Assembly: GCF_002161285.1 (NCBI RefSeq)
Contig: NZ_NFHH01000004.1
Coordinates: 124,001-188,000 of the forward strand
From: Blautia sp. An81
Lineage (GTDB): Bacteria > Bacillota > Clostridia > Lachnospirales > Lachnospiraceae
DNA length: 64,000 nucleotides
Reading direction: 5' to 3'
The position numbers and the translations under genes are program-made. Below are positions 4,122 through 46,292 of the stretch, piece after piece (within the stretch, counting starts at the first letter, position 1; each line of letters opens with the position of its first letter). The notes under the pieces are model-generated. The model did not search any database. It worked only from the letters and a program-made list of their open reading frames with translations, and was not told the DNA's origin.

Positions 4122-6404
4122 ATGAGATTTTATGAATCATTAAATGAGGACTGGAAATTTGCCAAGACTGATCAGGTGCCGGATAAAATGCCCTGTCATG
4201 GAAACGACCAGGACTGGGAGTGGGTAGACCTGCCTCATACCTGGAATAACTGGGACGGCCAGGACGGCGGGGGCGACTACTACAAAGGAAAAGGCATCTA
4301 TTTAAAGACCATTGAAAGACCTGACGTACCTGCAGATTATAAAATCTATCTGGAATTTGAAGGAGTAAATTCTGTCGCAGAGGTTTATCTCAACAACGAA
4401 AAAGTCTGCGAACACAAAGGCGGGTATTCTGCCTTTCGTGTAGACGCAACAGAGGCTCTGAAAGAAGGAAAAGCTTATCTGGCTGTAGTGGCGGACAATA
4501 AGAACCGGACAGACGTATATCCCCAGATGGCGGACTTTACCTTTTATGGAGGCATTTACCGGAATGTGACCATGATCTGTGTGCCTCAGACCCATTTCTG
4601 TCTGGATTATTTCGGATCTGCGGGAGTGGCTTTTGATACCAAACTTCAGAGTGAAGACGCTCTGGTAAATCTTTCTGCCTGGGTAACAGAAGCTCAGGAA
4701 AGCGATATGGTGCAGTTTGAGATCATGGATGAAGATGAGTCTGTGGTTGCAGAAGCTTTCGCTCCCGCTGCCTGGGAGACAAAAGCTACTGCCTGCATAG
4801 AAAAAGCTCATCTATGGCAGGGAGTAAAGGATCCCTATCTGTATACTGTGACGGCCAGAATTGTACGCCACAATGAAGTCCTTGATCAGGTAGAGGCAAG
4901 CCTTGGTGTAAGAGAGTTTTATGTGAATCCGGAAAAAGGATTCTTCCTAAACGGTATTCCAACACCTCTCAGAGGTGTATCCAGACATCAGGACCGTCTG
5001 GGACAGGGAAATGCGCTGACCGAAGAAGATCATTTAGAAGACGCTTATATGATCGCAGAGCTGGGAGCCAACACGGTCCGGCTGGCCCACTATCAGCATA
5101 ACCAGGCATTCTATGATGCCTGCGACGCACTGGGTCTGGTAGTATGGGCGGAGATTCCTTTTATCTCGGTTATGAGCAAAGATCCTAAAGGTCATGACAA
5201 CTGCCGCCAGCAGATGAAGGAACTGATCTATCAGAACTATAATCATCCCTGTATCTGCTTCTGGGGAATCTCTAATGAGATTACCATCGGCGGAGACCGT
5301 CCGGGACTTCAGGAAAATCTGGAAGATCTGAACAAACTGGTGAAAGAGCTGGATTCCACCAGACTGACTACTATGGCACAGGTATCTGCCCTTTCGAAAG
5401 AGTCCAGACACAACCAGATCACAGATGTGCTCAGCTATAACCATTATTTTGGCTGGTACGGCGGGGACTATACCCAGAATGAAAAATGGCTGGATGAATT
5501 CCATCAGATGTATCCGGACAGACCTCTGGGTATTTCCGAATATGGCTGCGAGGGCATTATCAGCTGGCATACAGACGATCCAAAATGCAAGGACTATACA
5601 GAGGAATATCAGGCCGAGTACCATGAACATATGGCAAAAATCATCGATGAGAGACCATATCTTTGGGCTACCCACATCTGGAACATGTTTGACTTCGGCT
5701 GCGATGCCAGAGATGAAGGCGGCGTAAAAGGAAGAAACAATAAGGGACTGGTAACTCTGGACAGAAAGGTGAAAAAAGACGCCTACTACATTTATAAGGC
5801 ATACTGGTCTGAAGAACCCTTCGTTCATATTACCGGAAGAAGATATGCCCTTCGTCCTTATGATCATATGACTGTTAAAGTATATTCCAACCAGAAACAG
5901 GTAACCCTGTATGTGAACGGCAAGAACGCAGGCACACAGGAAGGAAATAAGATTTTCCTGTTCGAGAACATTGCTCTGGATCAGGATATCAATGTGATCA
6001 CTGCCAAAGCAGAGGGCTGCCCTGCAGATACGGTTACCTTCACTAAAGTATCTCAGCCATATGCCGGATACGTAAGACCGGTAGATGAAGAAGATGAGGG
6101 CGCTGGAGTGAAGAACTGGTTTGAAGGAGTGGACGAAAACGGAGAACTTCCGGAAATGACCTTTAACGAGGGTTACTACAGTGTCCGTGATTTTGTCAGT
6201 GAGATCCTGACAAATGAAGAAGCCGCAGAAATCCTGGTAAGCGCCATTAATACCTACGGAACGATGAAGACAAAACGATCCATGCTGGGAATCCTGTCGG
6301 GCGTACCGGTAGAGGATCTGGCGGAGATGTATGCCAGTGACAAAGAAAAGAGAGAACGGCTTCTCAGACTTGCAAATGCAGAACTTCAGAAGGTAAAGAA
6401 ATAG
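4122..6404 (+). CDS. Glycoside hydrolase family 2, beta-galactosidase-like
   Basis: A 760-residue protein without a signal peptide. It shows the GH2 order: N-terminal jelly-roll sugar-binding domain (about 1-165), immunoglobulin-like domain, TIM barrel (about 270-570), then a further beta domain. The acid/base is E386 in FWGISNEIT and the nucleophile E473 in GISEYGCEG. It lacks the NxK motif that marks glucuronidases, so a galactosidase-type substrate is more likely. The last ~110 residues are an acidic helical tail of unknown role. It is the final gene of the HAD-GH3-GH2 operon, with a terminator directly after the stop. GH3 and GH2 exo-enzymes together suggest sequential trimming of an imported oligosaccharide. 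Confidence 0.87.
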   Translation: MRFYESLNEDWKFAKTDQVPDKMPCHGNDQDWEWVDLPHTWNNWDGQDGGGDYYKGKGIYLKTIERPDVPADYKIYLEFEGVNSVAEVYLNNEKVCEHKGGYSAFRVDATEALKEGKAYLAVVADNKNRTDVYPQMADFTFYGGIYRNVTMICVPQTHFCLDYFGSAGVAFDTKLQSEDALVNLSAWVTEAQESDMVQFEIMDEDESVVAEAFAPAAWETKATACIEKAHLWQGVKDPYLYTVTARIVRHNEVLDQVEASLGVREFYVNPEKGFFLNGIPTPLRGVSRHQDRLGQGNALTEEDHLEDAYMIAELGANTVRLAHYQHNQAFYDACDALGLVVWAEIPFISVMSKDPKGHDNCRQQMKELIYQNYNHPCICFWGISNEITIGGDRPGLQENLEDLNKLVKELDSTRLTTMAQVSALSKESRHNQITDVLSYNHYFGWYGGDYTQNEKWLDEFHQMYPDRPLGISEYGCEGIISWHTDDPKCKDYTEEYQAEYHEHMAKIIDERPYLWATHIWNMFDFGCDARDEGGVKGRNNKGLVTLDRKVKKDAYYIYKAYWSEEPFVHITGRRYALRPYDHMTVKVYSNQKQVTLYVNGKNAGTQEGNKIFLFENIALDQDINVITAKAEGCPADTVTFTKVSQPYAGYVRPVDEEDEGAGVKNWFEGVDENGELPEMTFNEGYYSVRDFVSEILTNEEAAEILVSAINTYGTMKTKRSMLGILSGVPVEDLAEMYASDKEKRERLLRLANAELQKVKK

Positions 6405-6413
6405 TTAACAGAG

Positions 6414-6466
6414 AAAAAAGCCCCTCTGCCTTCAGGTTTTTTCTGAAAGGCAGGGGGACTTTTTTC
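6414..6466 (+). terminator. Terminator after the GH2 gene
   Basis: GC-rich hairpin (CCCCTCTGCCTTCAG pairing with CTGAAAGGCAGGGGG) followed by a run of six T. It closes the HAD-GH3-GH2 operon. The A-run at the other foot could make it work on the minus strand too. Confidence 0.85.
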
Positions 6467-6481
6467 CTTTAAAGAAATGAT

Positions 6482-6679
6482 TTACTCTAAAGGAATAATC
6501 CAGTTTTCCGCATCTACGATAACTTCCATATCTACCAGCTCTGTAATATCCCAAAGGGCCTTATTTTCATCAGCGACCATATAACAGTAGTTGCCATCTT
6601 CAGGAATGTCCACCTTGATATCCTCTCCCTGATAATCCAGGATTTTCCAGATTTCACGTTCCCATGTATCTATATCATA
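6482..6679 (-). pseudogene. 5'-truncated gene remnant, acidic protein of unknown family
   Basis: The minus strand is open for 65 codons and ends in TAA at 6484-6482, but a TGA at 6682-6680 bounds it upstream and there is no ATG, GTG or TTG at the front and no ribosome site. The translation reads like real protein, rich in W, D and E: it includes TWEREIWKILDYQGED, then DGNYCYMVADENKALWD, and ends AENWIIPLE. Codon use resembles the neighbouring genes. It is squeezed between two terminators. The likeliest reading is the 3' end of a gene whose start was deleted. I do not recognise the family. Confidence 0.5.
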
Positions 6680-6698
6680 TCATGGAAAACAGAAAAAA

Positions 6699-6766
6699 AG
6701 AAGAGACAGTCTCACAGAAATTCCGGGCTTTCTATATGCCGGATTTCTGTGGGAGCGTCTCTTCTC
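6699..6766. terminator. Bidirectional terminator of the membrane HAD gene
   Basis: Long imperfect hairpin. AGAAGAGAC, CTC, CAGAAAT and CCGG on the left pair in order with CCGG, ATTTCTG, GAG and GTCTCTTCT on the right. Its A-rich left foot gives a U-run on the minus strand, fitting a terminator for the gene whose stop is at 6769. Confidence 0.7.
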
Positions 6767-6768
6767 TC

Positions 6769-7602
6769 TTATTTGACACCGAAATCTGCTAACTGGCGCA
6801 TAGCGCTTTTTCTGCCGGTGAAGTGTACGGCGTGGAGCCCCTGGGCTCTGGCCTCTGCCACATTGTCCAGAAGGTCATCGATAAAGACTGCCTTAGAAGG
6901 CTCAATATCAAAATCTTTTATCAGCTTCTGATAGATCTTTGGATCAGGCTTTAAGCAGTGGATCTGCCAGGACATATAGCCTCCATCCATAAAATCCAGG
7001 AACTTCATTTCTTTCTGACACCGGTCAAAGAGGGGCTTTGAGAAGTTAGACAGGATATAAAGCTTATATCCCCGCTTTTTAAAATATGTCAGCCAGCTCT
7101 TTGTGTAAGAATAAACACGAATGGTCTCTCCCATCCGTTCAAATGTCTCTCGGATCTGTTTTTCATGAGCAGGATCATTATTTATGAAAGCCTGCAAAAG
7201 CTCTTCTTCTGAAAGGATTCCCCGGTCACCCTCTGTCCAGGTGTTACTGAGAAATACAGCTTTTGCCACAGCCTGGGCTGTTTCTTCATCATATTTCAGA
7301 TCCCGCAGTAATTTCTTCCAGTCATAGCGGACAAGAACTTTGCCAATGTCAAAGATCAGCGTATCGATTTCGGAAGTTTCCGCCAGGATCTTTGGAATCA
7401 CTTCATCTTCCGGACGGGTCCACTTGTATACCAGAAGTATAGCGTAGATCAACACTGGTATGATCACCGTTCCGAAGAGAGAAGCCATCAGCATATTGCC
7501 TGCAGCAGAATTATCCGTCAGGGCAAAGATCAATGTAAGGACATACATGCCTGCCAGAAGGATAACTCCTATGAGTGCAAGAAGTCGTTTCAGGTTCTTC
7601 AC
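6769..7602 (-). CDS. Membrane-anchored HAD-IA hydrolase
   Basis: 277 residues. The N-terminus holds two hydrophobic helices (about 5-28 and 36-60), then a short linker and a HAD domain from about residue 82. Motif I is LIFDIGKVLVRYDW, of the FDxGxVL kind seen in YihX-like sugar phosphatases. Motif II is ILSNFS, the lysine is in CLKPDP, and motif IV is VFIDDLLDN. Most relatives are free cytosolic enzymes of about 200 residues, so the membrane anchor is unusual. The domain is predicted to face the cytoplasm (inference from the positive residues before helix 1). The start is GTG, chosen because AAGGGAG lies 8 bp upstream. Monocistronic. Confidence 0.8.
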   Translation of the reverse strand: MKNLKRLLALIGVILLAGMYVLTLIFALTDNSAAGNMLMASLFGTVIIPVLIYAILLVYKWTRPEDEVIPKILAETSEIDTLIFDIGKVLVRYDWKKLLRDLKYDEETAQAVAKAVFLSNTWTEGDRGILSEEELLQAFINNDPAHEKQIRETFERMGETIRVYSYTKSWLTYFKKRGYKLYILSNFSKPLFDRCQKEMKFLDFMDGGYMSWQIHCLKPDPKIYQKLIKDFDIEPSKAVFIDDLLDNVAEARAQGLHAVHFTGRKSAMRQLADFGVK

Positions 7603-7661
7603 TTCTTAATCTCCCTTGTCTAGAATATCTATTATTATAATAATTTTTGAGGTATCCGTCA

Positions 7662-8606
7662 ATGTATAAACAACTTGGCCGCAGATTTTGGGGATATACT
7701 TATCAGGAAATGGAAAAAGACCTGGAAATATTCGCCAGGGCTTTTCCGGAAACTATGAAGTTGAAAACTCTGGGAAAAACGGCAGATAAAAGGGAAATTT
7801 ACTGCTTTATACTGGGACGGGCGGACGCCGGGGAAAAGATTTTCTTATTCGGCGCTATTCACGGAAGAGAATACATGACCAGCCAGCTTCTTATGGAACA
7901 GACTGCCGAATTTCTCACAAAACTGTACCGGGAAGAAACTTATAAGGGCCATTCCTATAAAGAACTGCTAAGGGGGAAGGCTGTCTATGTGGTGCCCATG
8001 GCCAACCCCGACGGGGTTACCATCAGCCAGCAGGGCCCCAGAGGGATTAGAGATCCCGAACTTCAGAAACAGGTATGGAAGATCGGGGAGAGAGAAGGGG
8101 GGAGAATGCCCTGCGGCCCCTATTACAGAAAGTGGAAGGCCAATGCCCGGGGCGTGGATCTGAACCGGAATTTTCAGGCTTTCTGGGAAGAATACCATGA
8201 TCTGAAGGGACAGCCCTCCAGGGAAGGATACAAAGGTCAGGCCCCGGAGGATCAGGAAGAGTCTAAAGCACTGGCAGAGCTTACCAGGCAGGAAAAGTTT
8301 CAAAGGACAGTCAGCTATCATTCCTCTGGAGAAGTCATTTACTGGGATTTCGGACAAAAAGGAGAATTCCGGAGAATATGCCGCAACTTTGGAGAGCGGA
8401 TACAGCGGATCACAGGATACGGCCTGCCGGAAGGCTGGGATTACCTGGACCCGGCAGGCTACAAGGACTGGGCCGTAAAAGAAAGGAAGATCCCCAGCCT
8501 CACCATTGAAATAGGAAAAGCAGAGTCTCCCCTGCCCCCTTCCGCCTTCCGGGAGATCCTCAGAAGGAACCGGGGCGTCTGGGAGGAGACTCTGCTGTCC
8601 CTGTAA
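7662..8606 (+). CDS. M14-family zinc carboxypeptidase
   Basis: 314 residues with no signal peptide. Zinc ligands are visible as H67 and E70 in AIHGRE and H220 in SYHSSGE. The substrate-binding RGVDLNRNF segment is present, and the catalytic glutamate is E283 in LTIEIGKAE. The fold and length match compact bacterial gamma-D-glutamyl-diaminopimelate peptidases of the MpaA type, which trim peptidoglycan peptides, although other cytosolic M14 roles are possible. An in-frame TTG at 7647 exists, but GAGGT at 7649-7653 is correctly spaced for the ATG at 7662, so that start was chosen. It is divergent from the membrane HAD gene and shares its upstream region. Confidence 0.83.
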   Translation: MYKQLGRRFWGYTYQEMEKDLEIFARAFPETMKLKTLGKTADKREIYCFILGRADAGEKIFLFGAIHGREYMTSQLLMEQTAEFLTKLYREETYKGHSYKELLRGKAVYVVPMANPDGVTISQQGPRGIRDPELQKQVWKIGEREGGRMPCGPYYRKWKANARGVDLNRNFQAFWEEYHDLKGQPSREGYKGQAPEDQEESKALAELTRQEKFQRTVSYHSSGEVIYWDFGQKGEFRRICRNFGERIQRITGYGLPEGWDYLDPAGYKDWAVKERKIPSLTIEIGKAESPLPPSAFREILRRNRGVWEETLLSL

Positions 8607-8638
8607 AAAGAGTTTTAATGGTTTCTGCTATGTACGAA

Positions 8639-8689
8639 GGCTGCTGCGGTAAAGGTATCTTACTGCCGTACTCCCTTACCGTGACAGCC
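8639..8689. other. Strong hairpin downstream of the M14 gene
   Basis: GGCTG and CGGTAAAGG on the left pair with CCCTTACCG and CAGCC on the right, with a 17-nt loop and a 3/3 internal loop. No clear T-run follows, so it is either a weak terminator or a structured 3' end. The rest of the 8607-8944 gap holds the 33-bp repeat and no convincing gene. Confidence 0.55.
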
Positions 8690-8841
8690 TTGTTAAAAGG
8701 GGAGGATAAAGTATTTCTACTTTTTCTTTGGTCGTCTGCGGAAAGCGTCACCTCTTTGTGCCATCCCTCCGTGGACTATTTCTAGTATTGCCGGGAGAGA
8801 AAAATCTATACATATTTCAGAAAAATTTTGTGGACTGTTAT

Positions 8842-40721: not shown

Positions 40722-42101
40722 ATGCACAGAAATGAGACAAAAGGATTTCCGGGGGGGATTCATCCCACAGACGGTTACGATAAGTCTCTGACTATGGACA
40801 TTCCGGTGCGGGAATACTGGCCGGAAACAGTGACGATTCTGGCAGAACAGTCTTTTCGCGCCCTCTGCGGCCTGAAGGTCAGGCCTTTGGACCATGTGCA
40901 GGAAGGAGAGCGGATCGGGGATCCGGAAGCCTTTATGGCGGCCCCTCTTCATGCCAGCGTCACCGGAGAAGTGATAGGGATCAAAGAGGCAGAGAATCAG
41001 GGGAGGGCTGTGACGGCCTGTGTGATCCGGCGGCTGGAAGACCCAAAGAGAGAGACCATGTCTTATGAAAAAGAGGGCGTCTCCCTGTCTGAAGTTGATT
41101 CGGAGAAGATTTTGGAAGGGCTTCGGGAAGGCGGACTTACCGGCATGGGAGGCGCAGGCTTTCCTGCATTCCGAAAATACGAAACGGATAAGCAGATAGA
41201 TACTTTGCTGATCAATGGTGCGGAGTGCGAGCCTTTTTTGACCTGTGATTATCGTCTGATGCTTGAACAGGGACCTGCTCTGCTTAACGGTGTCCGGCTT
41301 CTTCTGAAAGCTTCCGGCGCTGGCAAGGCTTATGTATGTATTGAAGATAATAAGCCGGAGGCCATTGAGAATCTTCGGAAGATTTTGGAAAAGATGAGAG
41401 AGCAGGGGATTTTAGACCAGGGAGAAGAACTGGAAATAAAAGCTCTTCCTACAAAGTATCCCCAGGGCGGTGAGCGCCAGCTGATACAGAGTGTTTTAGG
41501 GAGAGAAGTTCCTATGGGAGGGCTGCCTGCCGATGCAGGAGTGATTGTTTCCAATGTGGGAACTGCCAAAGCCGCAGCAGATATGGTTCTGGGGAACAGA
41601 CCCCTGACGTCCAGGATCGTTACGGTAACAGGCTGTGTGAAAAATCCGGGGAATTTCCTGGTTCCTATAGGCACTTCCGCCAAAGAACTGGTGGAACTAT
41701 GCGGAGGAGTCACCACAGAAAAGAATCGGATCATTGGGGGAGGCCCTATGACAGGTCCCTGTGTGGCTTCCGACTGGAAGGGGGAAGAAGAGCTGTTTTA
41801 CATTACCAAGAGCACTTCCGGTATCCTGGTCCTTCCGGACAGTCATTACGAAGAGCAGCCCTGTATCCGCTGCGAGGCCTGCAAAAATGTCTGCCCTGCA
41901 GGGCTTACTCCCTACCAGATTGATTTTGCCTTTTTAAAGGAGGACTATGATCTGTGCCAGAAGCTCTATGCCAGCGAGTGTATCGCCTGCGGCTGCTGTT
42001 CCTACATCTGTCCGGCCAAAAGAGAACTGACTCTTCGGAACAGACTGGCGCGAGATTTAGTGAAGCAGCGAATGAGAGAAAAGGCGGTGAAGAAATCATG
42101 A
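40722..42101 (+). CDS. rnfC: RnfC-like electron transport subunit
   Basis: 459 residues. The order is as in RnfC: N-terminal domain, Rossmann-like flavin/NADH part with GLTGMGGAGFPAFRKY and NGAECEPFLTCDY (about 140-190), SLBB region, and two 4Fe-4S motifs at C381-C384-C387-C391 and C420-C423-C426-C430. RnfC is the peripheral cytoplasmic subunit that exchanges electrons with NADH. The promoter is 50 bp upstream and the ribosome site is TGGAGG. Its stop overlaps the rnfD start (ATGA). RnfB, its usual ferredoxin-side partner, is not present in the window. Confidence 0.92.
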   Translation: MHRNETKGFPGGIHPTDGYDKSLTMDIPVREYWPETVTILAEQSFRALCGLKVRPLDHVQEGERIGDPEAFMAAPLHASVTGEVIGIKEAENQGRAVTACVIRRLEDPKRETMSYEKEGVSLSEVDSEKILEGLREGGLTGMGGAGFPAFRKYETDKQIDTLLINGAECEPFLTCDYRLMLEQGPALLNGVRLLLKASGAGKAYVCIEDNKPEAIENLRKILEKMREQGILDQGEELEIKALPTKYPQGGERQLIQSVLGREVPMGGLPADAGVIVSNVGTAKAAADMVLGNRPLTSRIVTVTGCVKNPGNFLVPIGTSAKELVELCGGVTTEKNRIIGGGPMTGPCVASDWKGEEELFYITKSTSGILVLPDSHYEEQPCIRCEACKNVCPAGLTPYQIDFAFLKEDYDLCQKLYASECIACGCCSYICPAKRELTLRNRLARDLVKQRMREKAVKKS

Positions 42102-43045
42102 GTCCCACAAAAGTGATAAACGGTCCTCATCTGAGGACTGCCCAGACCACCAGGAACATCATGCTCCATGTTTCTATTTCCCTGGTTCCTGCTCTTCTGG
42201 GAGCAGTGTATTATTTTGGAATCCGGGCCCTTTATCTGACTGCTTTTTCTGTAGCAGTATGTGTACTGACGGAATTTCTGTGGCAGAAGATAACCAAAAA
42301 GCAGGTAACAGCAGGAGACTTCAGTGCGGTAGTTACCGGAATGCTCCTGGCCTTTAATATGCCTGTGACAGTGCCTGTCTGGGTACTTGGAGCGGCTGCT
42401 GTCTTCAGCATTCTGATCGTAAAGCAGATGTTCGGAGGCATTGGAAGTAATTTTGCCAATCCGGCCCTTATGGGAAGACTGATGGTCATGGTCTTATGGC
42501 CGGGGACAGTTATGGGATATACAGCTCCCAGAACACTGGCAGCAGACGCTGTTTCCCAGGCTACAGTTCTTGGTACGGTAAAAGCAGGAGGAGGGACGGG
42601 ATATTCCTATCTTCAGATGTTTCTGGGAGAAGTTCCCGGCGCTATGGGAGAGACCAGCAAGCTTCTTCTCCTGGCAGGATTTGCCTATATGTGTTACATG
42701 GGGGTGGTGAATGCAGAGGCTGCCCTTACCTATATTGCTACAGTGACAGTCCTTACCTTTATTTTCGGTCCCAGCGGTCTTTTTACCGGAGACATTCTGG
42801 CCAACCTTTTTGGCGGCGGACTGATCATGGGAGGCTGCTATATGCTGACAGATTATGTCTTTGTATCCAGAAGAGGAAAACTTCTGTATGCTCTGGCAGC
42901 AGGTATCATTACGGCTGCCATCCGTATTTTCAGCACATATCCGGAGGGAATCTGCTTCGGGATCCTGACGGCTAACTGCCTGGCAGGAATTCTTGCCCTG
43001 CTTTACCGGCAGCAGGTATATGGAACAAAGAAAAAGGTGATTTAA
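42098..43045 (+). CDS. rnfD: RnfD-like membrane flavoprotein subunit
   Basis: 315 residues with about nine to ten helices, the NqrB/RnfD fold. Recognisable parts are FGGIGSNFANPALMGRL (about 112-128) and the final KLLYALAAGIITAAIRIFS segment. The place where RnfD carries covalent FMN reads DAVSQATVL (D150 to T156): Thr156 is kept, but the usual glycine before Ala-Thr is Gln. The start ATG overlaps the rnfC stop, so translation is coupled. RnfD passes electrons across the membrane to RnfG; ApbE attaches its flavin. Confidence 0.9.
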   Translation: MSPTKVINGPHLRTAQTTRNIMLHVSISLVPALLGAVYYFGIRALYLTAFSVAVCVLTEFLWQKITKKQVTAGDFSAVVTGMLLAFNMPVTVPVWVLGAAAVFSILIVKQMFGGIGSNFANPALMGRLMVMVLWPGTVMGYTAPRTLAADAVSQATVLGTVKAGGGTGYSYLQMFLGEVPGAMGETSKLLLLAGFAYMCYMGVVNAEAALTYIATVTVLTFIFGPSGLFTGDILANLFGGGLIMGGCYMLTDYVFVSRRGKLLYALAAGIITAAIRIFSTYPEGICFGILTANCLAGILALLYRQQVYGTKKKVI

Positions 43046-43056
43046 AGGAGACGAAT

Positions 43057-44352
43057 ATGAAAAATAAAAATGTCAGAGGAATTCTTGCGTTGATCATCGT
43101 AACTGCTCTGTCCTTTGGAGTGATCGCAGGCTCTAAAGCTTTGGCAAAAGACCAGAGTGCGGACCAGGGACAGGACAAGGCCCAGATAACAGAGGAACTG
43201 GATGTGACAGAGACCGAAAATATCCAGTCAGCTGCCAGGACAGAGGATGGCTATCTGGTAACTGTGACAGAAGCCGGATACGGCGGCGATATTGTTCTGG
43301 AGGTATCCTTTGGGGAAGATAAGGCTACTGTGACAAATGTGGCAGTGACAGAACAGAATGAGACAGAAGGCGTTGGCTCCAAGATTACAGAAGAGGAATT
43401 TTTGAGTCAGTTTGCAGGGGCAAAGGCTCCGGTTTATCTGCCAGGTATGACACTGGAAGAAGATGCTGCCTCTGTTCAGGCGGAAGACCTGGAACTTCAG
43501 GACGGAACCTATGAGGCAAAAGCAGAGGCTCCTGACAATAATGGCTATACTGACCAGATGACGATGACTGTGTCTGAGGGAAAGATCACAGAGGCTGTAT
43601 GGGATGCTGTAGACGGAGACGGAAATAAGAAAAGCGAGCTTTCTGAAAACGGTCAGTATGTTATGACCGAGGACGGACCTACCTGGGCGGAACAGTCCAA
43701 GGCTTTAGGGGAAGCGCTGGTTGAAAATCAGTCCCTGGCCTTTCTGACTATGGATAATCAGGGAAAAACAGATGCAGTATCCGGCGTGAGCATTTCTGTA
43801 GGGGGATTTGCCAAGCTGGCTCAGCAGTGTATCGACCAGGCATCCGGAAAAGCAGTCCTGGTGTTACAGGATGGAACCTATGAGGCTAAGACAGAAACTC
43901 CTGACAGCAATGGATACACGGATCAGGTGACCATTACAGTTGCTGACGGAAAGATTACAGAAGCTGTATGGGAATCTGTAGATGCAGATGGAAACAAGAA
44001 AAGTGAGCTTTCTGAAAATGGCCAGTATGTGATGACCGAAGACGGACCTACCTGGGCAGAACAGTCCAAGGCTTTAGGGGCAGCACTGGTAGAAAATCAG
44101 AATCTGGATTTTCTGACTACAGACAATCAGGGAAAGACAGATGCGGTGTCTGGCGTAAGCATTTCTGTAGGCGGATTTGTGAAACTGGCTCAGCAGTGTA
44201 TTGACCAGGCTGGGGGAATGGAAAGCCAGGGAGGATCCGAAGGCCCACAGGAAGGAACAGAGGTAGATGGAGTATCCGGCGCCACCATTTCCTCCACAGC
44301 GGCTGTGAAAGGCATCAATGCAGCTTATGAATTTTTACAGACCATAGATTAA
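43057..44352 (+). CDS. rnfG: RnfG-like FMN protein with two inserted FMN-binding repeats
   Basis: 431 residues. One N-terminal membrane anchor (6-30), the rest outside. Residues 66-130 are the first half of an RnfG FMN domain (EAGYGGDIVLEVSF, TEQNETEGVGSKI). It is interrupted by two tandem copies (148-262 and 271-385) of a PplA/pheromone cAD1-like FMN domain (DGTYEAK, GKITEAVW, TDAVSGVSIS). The RnfG half then resumes with VDGVSGATIS (403-412), the flavinylation motif. The protein could carry three covalent FMNs, at T410 and perhaps at S245 and S368, if the GVS variants are accepted. Ordinary RnfG is about 200 residues. It probably extends electron transfer away from the membrane (inference). 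Confidence 0.85.
   Translation: MKNKNVRGILALIIVTALSFGVIAGSKALAKDQSADQGQDKAQITEELDVTETENIQSAARTEDGYLVTVTEAGYGGDIVLEVSFGEDKATVTNVAVTEQNETEGVGSKITEEEFLSQFAGAKAPVYLPGMTLEEDAASVQAEDLELQDGTYEAKAEAPDNNGYTDQMTMTVSEGKITEAVWDAVDGDGNKKSELSENGQYVMTEDGPTWAEQSKALGEALVENQSLAFLTMDNQGKTDAVSGVSISVGGFAKLAQQCIDQASGKAVLVLQDGTYEAKTETPDSNGYTDQVTITVADGKITEAVWESVDADGNKKSELSENGQYVMTEDGPTWAEQSKALGAALVENQNLDFLTTDNQGKTDAVSGVSISVGGFVKLAQQCIDQAGGMESQGGSEGPQEGTEVDGVSGATISSTAAVKGINAAYEFLQTID
43498..44211 (+). repeat. Tandem duplication inside the RnfG-like gene
   Basis: Two in-frame units start at 43498 and 43867, 369 bp (123 codons) apart. They are nearly identical over long stretches (for example the segment encoding ENGQYVMTEDGPTWAEQSKA in both), suggesting a recent duplication. 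Confidence 0.9.
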
Positions 44353-44370: not shown

Positions 44371-45141
44371 ATGAAATTAAAATATCCGGCAGAAGCCTTT
44401 GCTCTGGGTATTGTGCTTTTTTCCCGGAATATGAAGGAGGCCTTTGCAGGGGGAGTACTGGTGCTCCTGGCTGTGGTTTTCGCTGAATTTCTGAAGAATC
44501 TTTTAGAAAACTGGATACCTGTCTGGAGCCTCAGACTGTGTGTACTGATGGGCACAGGAGCTGTTACCGCCAGTGCTTTCCTGCTGGGCTTTACAGCCCT
44601 GGGGATCACTGTGGATAATGGTACATGGCTGATGACCGCAGTAATCGGGCTGTTAGCCGGAAAAACCGCTCTTTTCGGAAATCTGGAGGCAGATTACGGA
44701 AATATCTTTTATGAGTCCGGGATCCTCTGGGGATTCTGGATCCTGCTGGGAATCCTCAGGGAGTTCCTGACTCAGGGAACAGTCTTTGGAAACCTTCTTT
44801 TAGAAGAAGCACCTTTCTTTTCCCAGAGCTTTCAGGGAACTGCCCTGGGCTTTCTGGCAGCAGGATTGGCCCTGGCCTTTGCTAATGGAATCCTGAAGAA
44901 AAAATCTTCGGGAACTCAGAGCCTATTACTGGTGATTCCGGTGATCCTTTTTGCAAGGCCTTTTGAGATGGTTACCTTCGGAGGGATCGTTGCCTTTATC
45001 TGGACAGTAGGGGTTTCTGTACTTCTTTACATTTCCGTACAGAAGATTCTGCGGTTTTCCAATCCGGGACCTTATTTCAGAGGACTTCCTCTGGAAATGC
45101 TTTCCATGAGCTTTATTTATTTGATTTTGAGTATTTATTAA
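44371..45141 (+). CDS. Divergent RnfE/RnfA-like membrane protein
   Basis: 256 residues with about six helices. The stretch GILREFLTQGTVFG (127-140) matches the GaiREllG-Gt signature of RnfE/NqrD, and the layout before it fits the same fold. RnfA and RnfE each place conserved cysteines in two helices to hold a membrane 2Fe-2S cluster. This protein has a single cysteine (C57), and the NC-x-LGR position reads KTALFGN, so that cluster cannot form as in true Rnf. It follows the RnfG-like gene by 18 bp with a GGGGG ribosome site and ends the operon. Also longer than RnfE (about 200 residues), with a C-terminal extension. Confidence 0.7.
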   Translation: MKLKYPAEAFALGIVLFSRNMKEAFAGGVLVLLAVVFAEFLKNLLENWIPVWSLRLCVLMGTGAVTASAFLLGFTALGITVDNGTWLMTAVIGLLAGKTALFGNLEADYGNIFYESGILWGFWILLGILREFLTQGTVFGNLLLEEAPFFSQSFQGTALGFLAAGLALAFANGILKKKSSGTQSLLLVIPVILFARPFEMVTFGGIVAFIWTVGVSVLLYISVQKILRFSNPGPYFRGLPLEMLSMSFIYLILSIY

Positions 45142-45257: not shown

Positions 45258-46292
45258 CTATTTTGCAAGAGTGATCTCCTTTTCGAAATCTTCGCTGTAG
45301 TGGAGCTGGTAATCCTCTGTGATAAAGACTGCATGTACATCAGGGAGACTGTTGATCAGCTCCATGCCCTTGTCCAGACCCAGAGCAAAACAGGTGGTGC
45401 TCAGACCGTCTCCGTCTACAGACTCATCAGAGATGATAGTGACTGAGACCAGATTATTTTCATAAGGATATCCGGTGGAGGGATTTAAAATGTGGTGATA
45501 CAGCACCCCGTCCTGTTCAAAGTACCGCTCATAAATTCCAGAGGATACCACGGACTTATCGGAAATTTCCATAACAGCCGCTGTTTCGCTTCGGTCTGCG
45601 AAAGGCATCTGGACGCCGATGCGGAAGGGGCTTCCGTCTGGCCGCTGTCCAACGCAAAGTACATTTCCGCCCAGATCGATAATGGCGCTTTCTACTCCCT
45701 CTTCCAGAAGATAATCTTTCATTTTGTCAGCAATATAACCTTTAGCAATGGCTCCAAGGTTGATTCCCATTCCTTCTTTTTCAAAACGGATACGATTGCC
45801 TTCCAGAGTAATATCCTCATAATTGATAAGAGGCAGAGCAGCCTTAATGGCTGAACTATCGGGAACGGTTCCCTCTCCCGAGGTGAAATCCCACAGAGAG
45901 GAAAGAGGCTCTATGGCAATATCAAAGGCTCCCTGGGACAGCTGGCAGTAGGAAAGTCCCCGGGAGATCAAATTGGCAGTTTCTTCCGACAATTCATAAA
46001 ATCCCTCTTCATCCTGGGAAAGTTCGCCGTGATTCAGTCGGTACAGCTCACTGGTTTCTGTGGTAGGGCTAAGAAGATTGTCATATTTCCTGCATAATTC
46101 CAGGGCGCCGTCCAGAATGGATTCGTCCTGAGAGTCATAAAGGGTTACTGTAACAATGGTATTCAGTAAGTAATCGGTTTTGCTTATGGGCTCTGTTTCC
46201 CTCTCTCGATTTTGATATACCAGGGCAAAAGCCAGAAGCACTAAAAACAGAAGAATGACAGCCAGGACTGCCCGCTTGCTTTTTGTATTCAT
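45258..46292 (-). CDS. apbE: FAD:protein FMN transferase ApbE
   Basis: 344 residues. An N-terminal membrane anchor (8-26) puts the enzyme outside. ApbE hallmarks: KTDYLLNTIVTVTLYDS, GINLGAIAKGYIADKM (near residue 175) for FAD binding, ILNPSTGYP and the Mg-site DGDGLSTTCFALG. It moves FMN from FAD to Ser/Thr of SGAT-like motifs, exactly the motifs in the RnfG- and RnfD-like proteins encoded convergently next door, so they are its likely targets. Monocistronic, with AAAGGAGCTT before the ATG. Confidence 0.93.
   Translation of the reverse strand: MNTKSKRAVLAVILLFLVLLAFALVYQNRERETEPISKTDYLLNTIVTVTLYDSQDESILDGALELCRKYDNLLSPTTETSELYRLNHGELSQDEEGFYELSEETANLISRGLSYCQLSQGAFDIAIEPLSSLWDFTSGEGTVPDSSAIKAALPLINYEDITLEGNRIRFEKEGMGINLGAIAKGYIADKMKDYLLEEGVESAIIDLGGNVLCVGQRPDGSPFRIGVQMPFADRSETAAVMEISDKSVVSSGIYERYFEQDGVLYHHILNPSTGYPYENNLVSVTIISDESVDGDGLSTTCFALGLDKGMELINSLPDVHAVFITEDYQLHYSEDFEKEITLAK

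Follow-up and report, generated by a model that had tools for sequence, protein, structure and literature searches.

We analysed a 64,000-nucleotide stretch of a Blautia sp. An81 contig (the window), in which a run of four plus-strand genes, here called rnfC2, rnfD2, rnfG2 and X, lies downstream of the L20 gene. The first, rnfC2 (40722..42101), encodes a 459-residue RnfC homologue with an NADH/FMN module and two 4Fe–4S clusters (TIGR01945, 7zc6_C). It overlaps by ATGA the RnfD homologue rnfD2 (42098..43045, from a deduced start; gene calls began at 42095 or 41954). These are followed by rnfG2 (43057..44352), which starts with ATG and encodes a 431-residue nested multi-FMN subunit, and by X (44371..45141), which encodes a 256-residue membrane protein. 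Beyond X, on the opposite strand and convergent to it, lies apbE (45258..46292, minus strand), which encodes an FAD:protein FMN transferase (PF02424, 7.5e-87) and which an earlier reading, made from the sequence alone, had correctly placed next to rnfG2. We found none of rnfA, rnfB and rnfE in the window's rnfC–rnfD–rnfG–X cluster.

We gathered related clusters with two peptide patterns taken from the repeats of RnfG2, and obtained 57 loci, which became 50 distinct clusters after merging identical X sequences. Near-identical strains remain among these, so that counts are not independent; insert-free clusters are under-counted by this procedure, the only one (L059) having come from a separate search, and the genome collections are samples. 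The full run rnfC2–rnfD2–rnfG2–X was present in 44 of the 50 clusters, including one in which RnfC2 and RnfD2 are fused into a protein of 886 residues (L052, 9677–12337). In the other six (L131, L138, L155, L162, L168 and L175) the cluster stands at the start of the locus, where the record ends. For 33 of the 50 clusters we found apbE no more than 6 kb away, and several of the remaining 17 have short flanks. RnfB-type matches were detected in three of 50 loci. In L044 the match lies with an rnfA about 6 kb away and belongs to a complete operon (L193); those in L123 and L124 are weak (22–23 bits), and the L123 one, which we scanned, is a ferredoxin-like ORF. A 252-residue ORF upstream of rnfC2 in L123 (13109–13867) and L124 (3838–4596), found also in L134 and L136, could be an added electron carrier.

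Named carriers of the cluster include Blautia hansenii, B. caecimuris, Mediterraneibacter glycyrrhizinilyticus, Herbinix hemicellulosilytica and Lachnoclostridium sp. An131, An138 and An196. Full-length matches to X numbered seven among 392 genomes of the order; among 398 genomes of the phylum the window's own was the only one. Weak partial matches (at most 40 bits) in 84 order and 59 phylum genomes are of the kind that RnfE or RnfA gives. One cluster (L177) comes from a contig recorded under Anaerolineaceae (Chloroflexota), with an RnfD2 that is sister to a Lachnospiraceae one; it is probably a misplaced contig or a recent transfer.

Nested FMN domains in RnfG2

The sequence-only reading had proposed that the two halves of an RnfG domain are separated in this protein by two near-identical PplA-like FMN repeats, and had suggested a PF04205 search to place the domain borders. 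We cut RnfG2 into pieces and scanned each alone against domain models (PF04205 cut-off, 22 bits). Residues 45–134 (43189..43458) matched positions 1–36 of PF04205 with 31.9 bits, and residues 399–431 (44251..44349), which carry VDGVSGATIS, matched positions 53–77 with 30.0 bits. Between these halves stand two repeats of about 117 residues with 87% mutual identity, each covering PF04205 positions 1–76: repeat 1 (residues 146–264; 43492..43848) scored 20.5 bits, just below the cut-off, and repeat 2 (residues 269–388; 43861..44220) scored 23.5 bits, above it. By model, RnfG2 has three FMN_bind domains, one of them just below the cut-off. The RnfG model TIGR01947 was split alike, with positions 78–143 on the N-terminal half and 158–186 on the C-terminal half. 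Comparison with solved chains, by a profile built from 38 sequences (that of the window among them), agreed: RnfG of C. tetanomorphum (7zc6_G) was matched in two stretches (profile 31–122 with RnfG 45–139, and 400–434 with 148–182), and about 277 profile positions stand where 7zc6_G has eight residues. The borders thus bear out the proposed halves and their insert. The N-terminal segment, first given as residues 66–130, is RnfG-like as claimed, although it begins closer to residue 47 than to 66.

The inserted repeats are of the domain type seen in the lipoprotein PplA and in PDB 2kzx, their closest solved domain (E=1.1e-18 for repeat 1). With the PplA model NF041941, repeat 1 scored 54.9, repeat 2 scored 54.5 and the whole of RnfG2 98 bits, all far below the cut-off of 325. 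Unlike PplA, the repeats are nested in another protein, and by eye we saw no lipoprotein cysteine at the RnfG2 N terminus. RnfG2 has the N-terminal membrane helix (read by eye) and the FMN_bind domain with an SGAT threonine that define an RnfG. TIGR01947 gave 54.1 bits on the whole protein, below its cut-off of 102; the insert-free relative L059 also scored low (52.1), and the canonical RnfG of the window's genome scored 114. We conclude that, as judged by these models, the layout of RnfG2 is confirmed: two complete FMN domains of the PplA type interrupt an RnfG FMN domain, and the break falls just before the loop that bears the predicted flavin threonine.

Three other accounts of this layout were rejected. 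An arrangement of three whole domains as beads on a string is ruled out, the N- and C-terminal parts covering complementary stretches of one model. A split gene or an assembly error in repeats is ruled out as well: many assemblies share the layout, repeat numbers differ and the repeats are mostly diverged, those of L149 and L154 being identical within the protein. A single Pfam stretch over residues 74–259 proved to be a chimeric alignment that joins the N-terminal RnfG half to the end of repeat 1. Nor is the nested layout due to chance, because it is found in tens of genomes with differing insert numbers.

The layout had been thought to be without a described precedent, which was too strong a claim. 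Meheust et al. (2021) described RNF clusters with multi-flavinylated RnfG, RnfG subunits that resemble RnfG2 in having extra FMN-binding domains, and proposed a route to external acceptors (PMC8238504; here and below, published papers are cited from excerpts). In the excerpts of that paper we found no statement on the nesting of RnfG domains. Closer in layout is the 'circularly permuted' multi-FMN-bind1 of Huang et al. (2024), in which the first FMN domain is completed by a C-terminal helix that follows another FMN domain, the same nesting as in RnfG2 (PMC11334425). Their figure shows a double-flavinylated protein, and in the excerpts we found no tie to Rnf or to a series of inserts; their sequence set and the nested RnfG2 family may overlap in members. 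Nested FMN proteins and multi-flavinylated RnfG are thus already known, and the more interesting part is the setting in half of an Rnf.

Predicted flavin sites and insert number

ApbE is known to act on [S/T]GA[S/T], usually in the form SGAT. When aligned, 48 of 48 RnfG cores have Thr and 75 of 75 repeats have Ser at the attachment position, which predicts FMN on T410, S245 and S368 of the window's RnfG2, in keeping with the 'up to three covalent flavins' of the sequence-only reading. We infer the FMNs on S245 and S368, two of the three, from residue invariance, because the repeats carry [STAN]GVS and not [S/T]GA[S/T]. We know of no test of flavinylation of the [S/A/T/N]GVS form. The Val that stands where known ApbE sites have Ala, and the score of repeat 1 below the PF04205 cut-off, would suit inserted domains that bear few covalent flavins, if any, and give the RnfG FMN a spacer or a docking arm. 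We regard such an arm as unlikely: not one of 75 repeats departs from the Asp, Gly and Val of the motif or from its attachment Ser, the matching place in 2kzx is occupied by DAISGAT, and apbE is near in the majority of loci counted above.

The number of inserts at this one site varies from zero to three in the Rnf-like clusters, and reaches four or seven in some proteins elsewhere. Writing N and C for the RnfG halves and R for a repeat, RnfG2 was readable in 48 of 50 clusters as N-R-R-C (26), N-R-C (18), N-R-R-R-C (one, L151) and N-C (one, L059); the remaining two (L168 and L175), close to contig starts, read R-C. In L131 and L155 the gene is cut at the record end, and in L162, counted among the 26, the N-terminal half is divided between two ORFs. 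L059 probably lost its insert, because it is placed among one-insert members in the RnfD2 tree. The nested layout also occurs in 13 single genes outside such clusters, with no insert in three, one in three, two in four, four in two (one gene fetched twice) and seven in one; apbE was in the fetched stretch for seven of the 13. The seven-repeat protein (L048, 7392–10535; 1,047 residues) adjoins apbE, and its fetched stretch has no rnfC2, rnfD2 or X. Three further loci (L045, 8107–10401; L047; L053) encode multi-FMN proteins with PplA-type repeats before or after other FMN-type segments, in which we saw no nesting.

In the 26 two-repeat proteins, identity between the repeats of one protein averages 88%. 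Across species it averages 69% between first repeats and 68% between a first and a second repeat. The repeats look as if they were homogenized or re-duplicated in separate lineages, because identity within a protein exceeds that across species.

RnfC2, RnfD2 and the membrane protein X

RnfC2 scored 390.9 bits with TIGR01945 (cut-off 245.95) and matched PF01512, and its best PDB match was 7zc6_C; RnfD2 scored 228.8 bits with TIGR01946 (cut-off 207.05). In solved Rnf, the residues of interest are T156, N123 and D249 of RnfD, C25 and C113 of RnfA, and C25 and C108 of RnfE (PMC11889175). Truncated genes were left out of our residue counts, which cover 44 of 50 clusters for RnfC2, 45 of 50 for RnfD2 and 49 of 50 for X. 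All eight cluster cysteines of RnfC2 are kept in 44 of 44 relatives. The FMN-linking Thr and the flavin-binding Asp of RnfD2 are each kept in 45 of 45, and the Asn in 44 of 45, the exception being a gap. To judge from these alignments, RnfC2 and RnfD2 keep the cofactor-binding residues that we checked.

In a tree of RnfD sequences, 43 RnfD2 rows form one clade apart from 25 canonical-type rows (support 100/99), with the caution that the tree has long branches; 21 of the 25 rows labelled canonical come from genomes that bear the cluster. The earliest branch of the RnfD2 clade is L044, the next fork being supported at 94/71 only. The most extreme long branch is the RnfD of L181, which is called canonical by its score and yet adjoins a nested RnfG. 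In that locus (5876–8789), an N-terminal half and one repeat, cut by the contig end, stand next to an RnfC and this near-canonical-scoring RnfD. L181 is either a divergent cluster of the window's type or a genuine Rnf whose RnfG is nested, which would agree with Meheust et al. (PMC8238504).

X alone had no match in Pfam or NCBIfam, and its kinship emerged from profile matches only. Against solved chains, an X profile found RnfE (7zc6_E, 4.2e-6) and NqrD (5.5e-4); its match to the end of RnfA (9eri_A, 0.014) was weak. Profile–profile comparison gave RnfE over approximately residues 25–183 (6e-7) and RnfA over approximately residues 169–249 (9.8e-5), and the tail of the L044 X matched an NqrE model (0.0019). 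By these profiles X is RnfE-like in its body, with an RnfA-like tail.

The intramembrane [2Fe–2S] cluster of Rnf is held by two cysteines of RnfA and two of RnfE (PMC11889175). Both RnfE cysteine columns are filled in 24 of 24 canonical RnfE sequences; in X, the C111 column holds no cysteine (0 of 49), and at C28 all 49 sequences are gapped. At this distance the alignment of X with RnfE is unsure by a few residues, and we also sought cysteines near both places. They occur within residues 8–24 in three of 49 sequences (L044, L052 and L178) and within residues 90–103 in 19 of 49, with both only in L044. Near the RnfE ligand places the cysteine pair is thus absent from 48 of 49 X sequences, and L044 may keep it. 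The window's X has a single cysteine, at residue 57. Cysteines elsewhere in X (residue 57 in 41 of 49, 66 in 22, 96 in 16 and 179 in 18) are none of them invariant.

The X of L044 (6769–7551) has its cysteines at residues 19 and 102, each no more than about one residue away from the respective RnfE ligand place. As read from its sequence, this protein may be an evolutionary intermediate, a stage before cysteine loss.

A proposed outward route for NADH electrons

The known role of Rnf is that of a reversible ferredoxin:NAD pump. Electrons pass between ferredoxin and NAD+ in solved Rnf by way of RnfB, the RnfA/RnfE cluster, RnfG, RnfD and RnfC (PMC11889175; PMC12174285). The window's cluster shares the RnfC, RnfD and RnfG core of canonical Rnf (7zc6, 9eri), the RnfD threonine included. 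It differs from it in that RnfG is split by inserts, RnfB and the four-cysteine RnfA/RnfE pair are missing, and, on the gene content and alignments above, RnfA and RnfE are replaced by the single X, which in the window is without the cluster cysteines. Without RnfB and the RnfA/RnfE cluster, the path from NADH through RnfC and RnfD to RnfG remains, and it ends outside. On balance we lean towards the view that the operon is a one-way, Rnf-derived exporter of NADH electrons. RnfC2 would oxidize NADH in the cytosol, and electrons would pass through its 4Fe–4S clusters to the RnfD2 flavins and to the FMN on T410 of RnfG2. From there they would move to the inserted domains, with FMN on S245 and S368, and finally to an acceptor located in the cell wall or outside it. 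The FMNs would be attached by ApbE, and how far RnfG2 reaches, or how much flavin it bears, would depend on the number of inserts. X would most likely only hold RnfG2 in place, with no Na+ pumping by an RnfA/RnfE redox switch; it could still move ions.

A three-flavin protein, SaFMN3, has a single potential of −184 mV (PMC10339131), which, if RnfG2 is comparable, is downhill from NADH. Near-identical potentials would be expected of near-identical repeats, and together with the high average identity within repeat pairs the single potential of SaFMN3 would also suit a flavin store, a capacitor that buffers electrons at the membrane, in place of a wire to a distant acceptor. We consider such a store very improbable, in that equal potentials suit hopping too, and inserts numbering up to three in clusters and four and seven outside them fit reach at least as well. 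For the exporter, FAD would be needed outside the cell. In Listeria, EetB has a part in exporting FAD for flavinylation outside the cytosol (PMC9973259). Of the 50 clusters, 13 have an EetB-type gene (PF07456) within 6 kb, 11 have a NusG_II-type gene and 11 have both; these neighbours were grouped by BLAST, the family being checked on one member of each, and by analogy with Listeria they fit such a need. Among the 443 neighbour ORFs of the 50 loci, few of which were family-searched, we recognized no terminal reductase in groups of at least four loci.

The sequence-only reading had taken the multi-FMN wire to be built inside an Rnf subunit, a placement that, for an ordinary Rnf, our results do not support. 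The window's genome encodes a complete rnfCDGEAB on another contig (L035, 5032–10038; G000:C23) with an ordinary RnfG of 202 residues, and the cluster studied here is without rnfA, rnfB and rnfE. RnfB is above the cut-off in 20 of 25 genome entries that carry the cluster, the window's genome included, which makes subunit mixing possible there. RnfG2 could then be an alternative RnfG of the complete Rnf, receiving ferredoxin electrons through RnfB and the RnfA/RnfE cluster and diverting a share of them to the outside, which is what Meheust et al. suggested for multi-flavinylated RnfG (PMC8238504); the nested RnfG beside a near-canonical RnfD in L181, where the contig ends, could be read in the same way. 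Such a role is improbable in our estimation. Dedicated RnfC2, RnfD2 and X are encoded together with RnfG2, and RnfD2 forms a separate clade. Among 20 complete operons that we fetched, RnfG is 189–230 residues long, hence insert-free, in 19, and none was detected in the other (L190).

Some genomes with the cluster gave no RnfB. In a further entry (G090), RnfB scored 62.2 against a cut-off of 68.7; this genome has Rnf, because it has two good RnfA/RnfE genes. Three distinct genomes that we searched have the cluster and no RnfB above the cut-off or confirmable RnfA/RnfE: An138 (entered twice, as G223 and G1029), An131 (G1031) and Candidatus Egerieimonas intestinavium (G1033). The last gave no RnfA/RnfE match. 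An138 and An131 each gave one partial match of 24–25 bits, nominally above the cut-off of 23.8, which we rejected: the matches lie inside ORFs of 486 and 495 residues that we read by eye as cell-wall proteins of the FtsW/RodA type (SEDS-like), and that of An138 adjoins a penicillin-binding-like ORF. Absence is weaker for An131 and Egerieimonas, a completeness figure being at hand only for G223 (97%). These genomes argue against an alternative RnfG and are consistent with the exporter.

Of known systems, the nearest in proposed function are the two-subunit NQR/RNF-like systems, for which a one-way passage of electrons has been proposed, starting at NAD(P)H and ending at a flavin subunit outside the cytosol (PMC8238504; PMC11334425). 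In these, occurring primarily in Actinobacteria and CPR, an NqrB/RnfD domain is joined to an NqrF-type NAD domain and is without the RnfD flavinylation site. The Blautia cluster instead has a separate RnfC entry and keeps the RnfD FMN threonine, and RnfD2 matches PF03116 alone, with no fused PF00175. The rules given in PMC8238504 called RNF from rnfB and the NQR/RNF-like group from PF03116 with PF00175; as excerpted, they would include the cluster in neither group. Among the titles, abstract openings and excerpts that a literature search covered, we found no rnfC–rnfD–rnfG cluster without rnfA, rnfB and rnfE.

We give even chances to a broader proposal, drawn from the sequence comparisons. This would be a Lachnospiraceae respiratory module, a 'half-Rnf', made from Rnf minus its ferredoxin arm and redox-driven pump, with the NADH arm turned into an extracellular exporter, the outward subunit lengthened by near-identical flavin domains inside its own fold, and L044 as a halfway stage. 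If this is true, an NADH-only, outward Rnf derivative would let gut Blautia and relatives unload electrons from NADH onto acceptors outside the cell. It would also be a living parallel to the loss of rnfB proposed for the origin of NQR (PMC4014512). The series of zero, one, two and three inserts at one site (four and seven outside clusters) is a natural test of flavin number against electron transfer, and named isolates carry the cluster, two of them (An138 and An131) with no RnfB found.

Three minor observations concern the other Rnf-related and flavin genes of these genomes. In the window's genome, it is the complete rnf operon that has a NusG_II and PF07456 (EetB-type) gene pair nearby, about 2 kb downstream. 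The canonical RnfE of these genomes (L035, 7933–8637, and relatives) has a Cys-rich C-terminal tail, in which three cysteine columns are filled in 23 of 24 sequences and which might bind metal. On a third contig of the window's genome (L036, 6626–9682; G000:C16), a protein of 1,018 residues is another candidate extracellular flavoprotein: it matches FMN_bind once, its long linkers are acidic and rich in proline, and its tail is hydrophobic.
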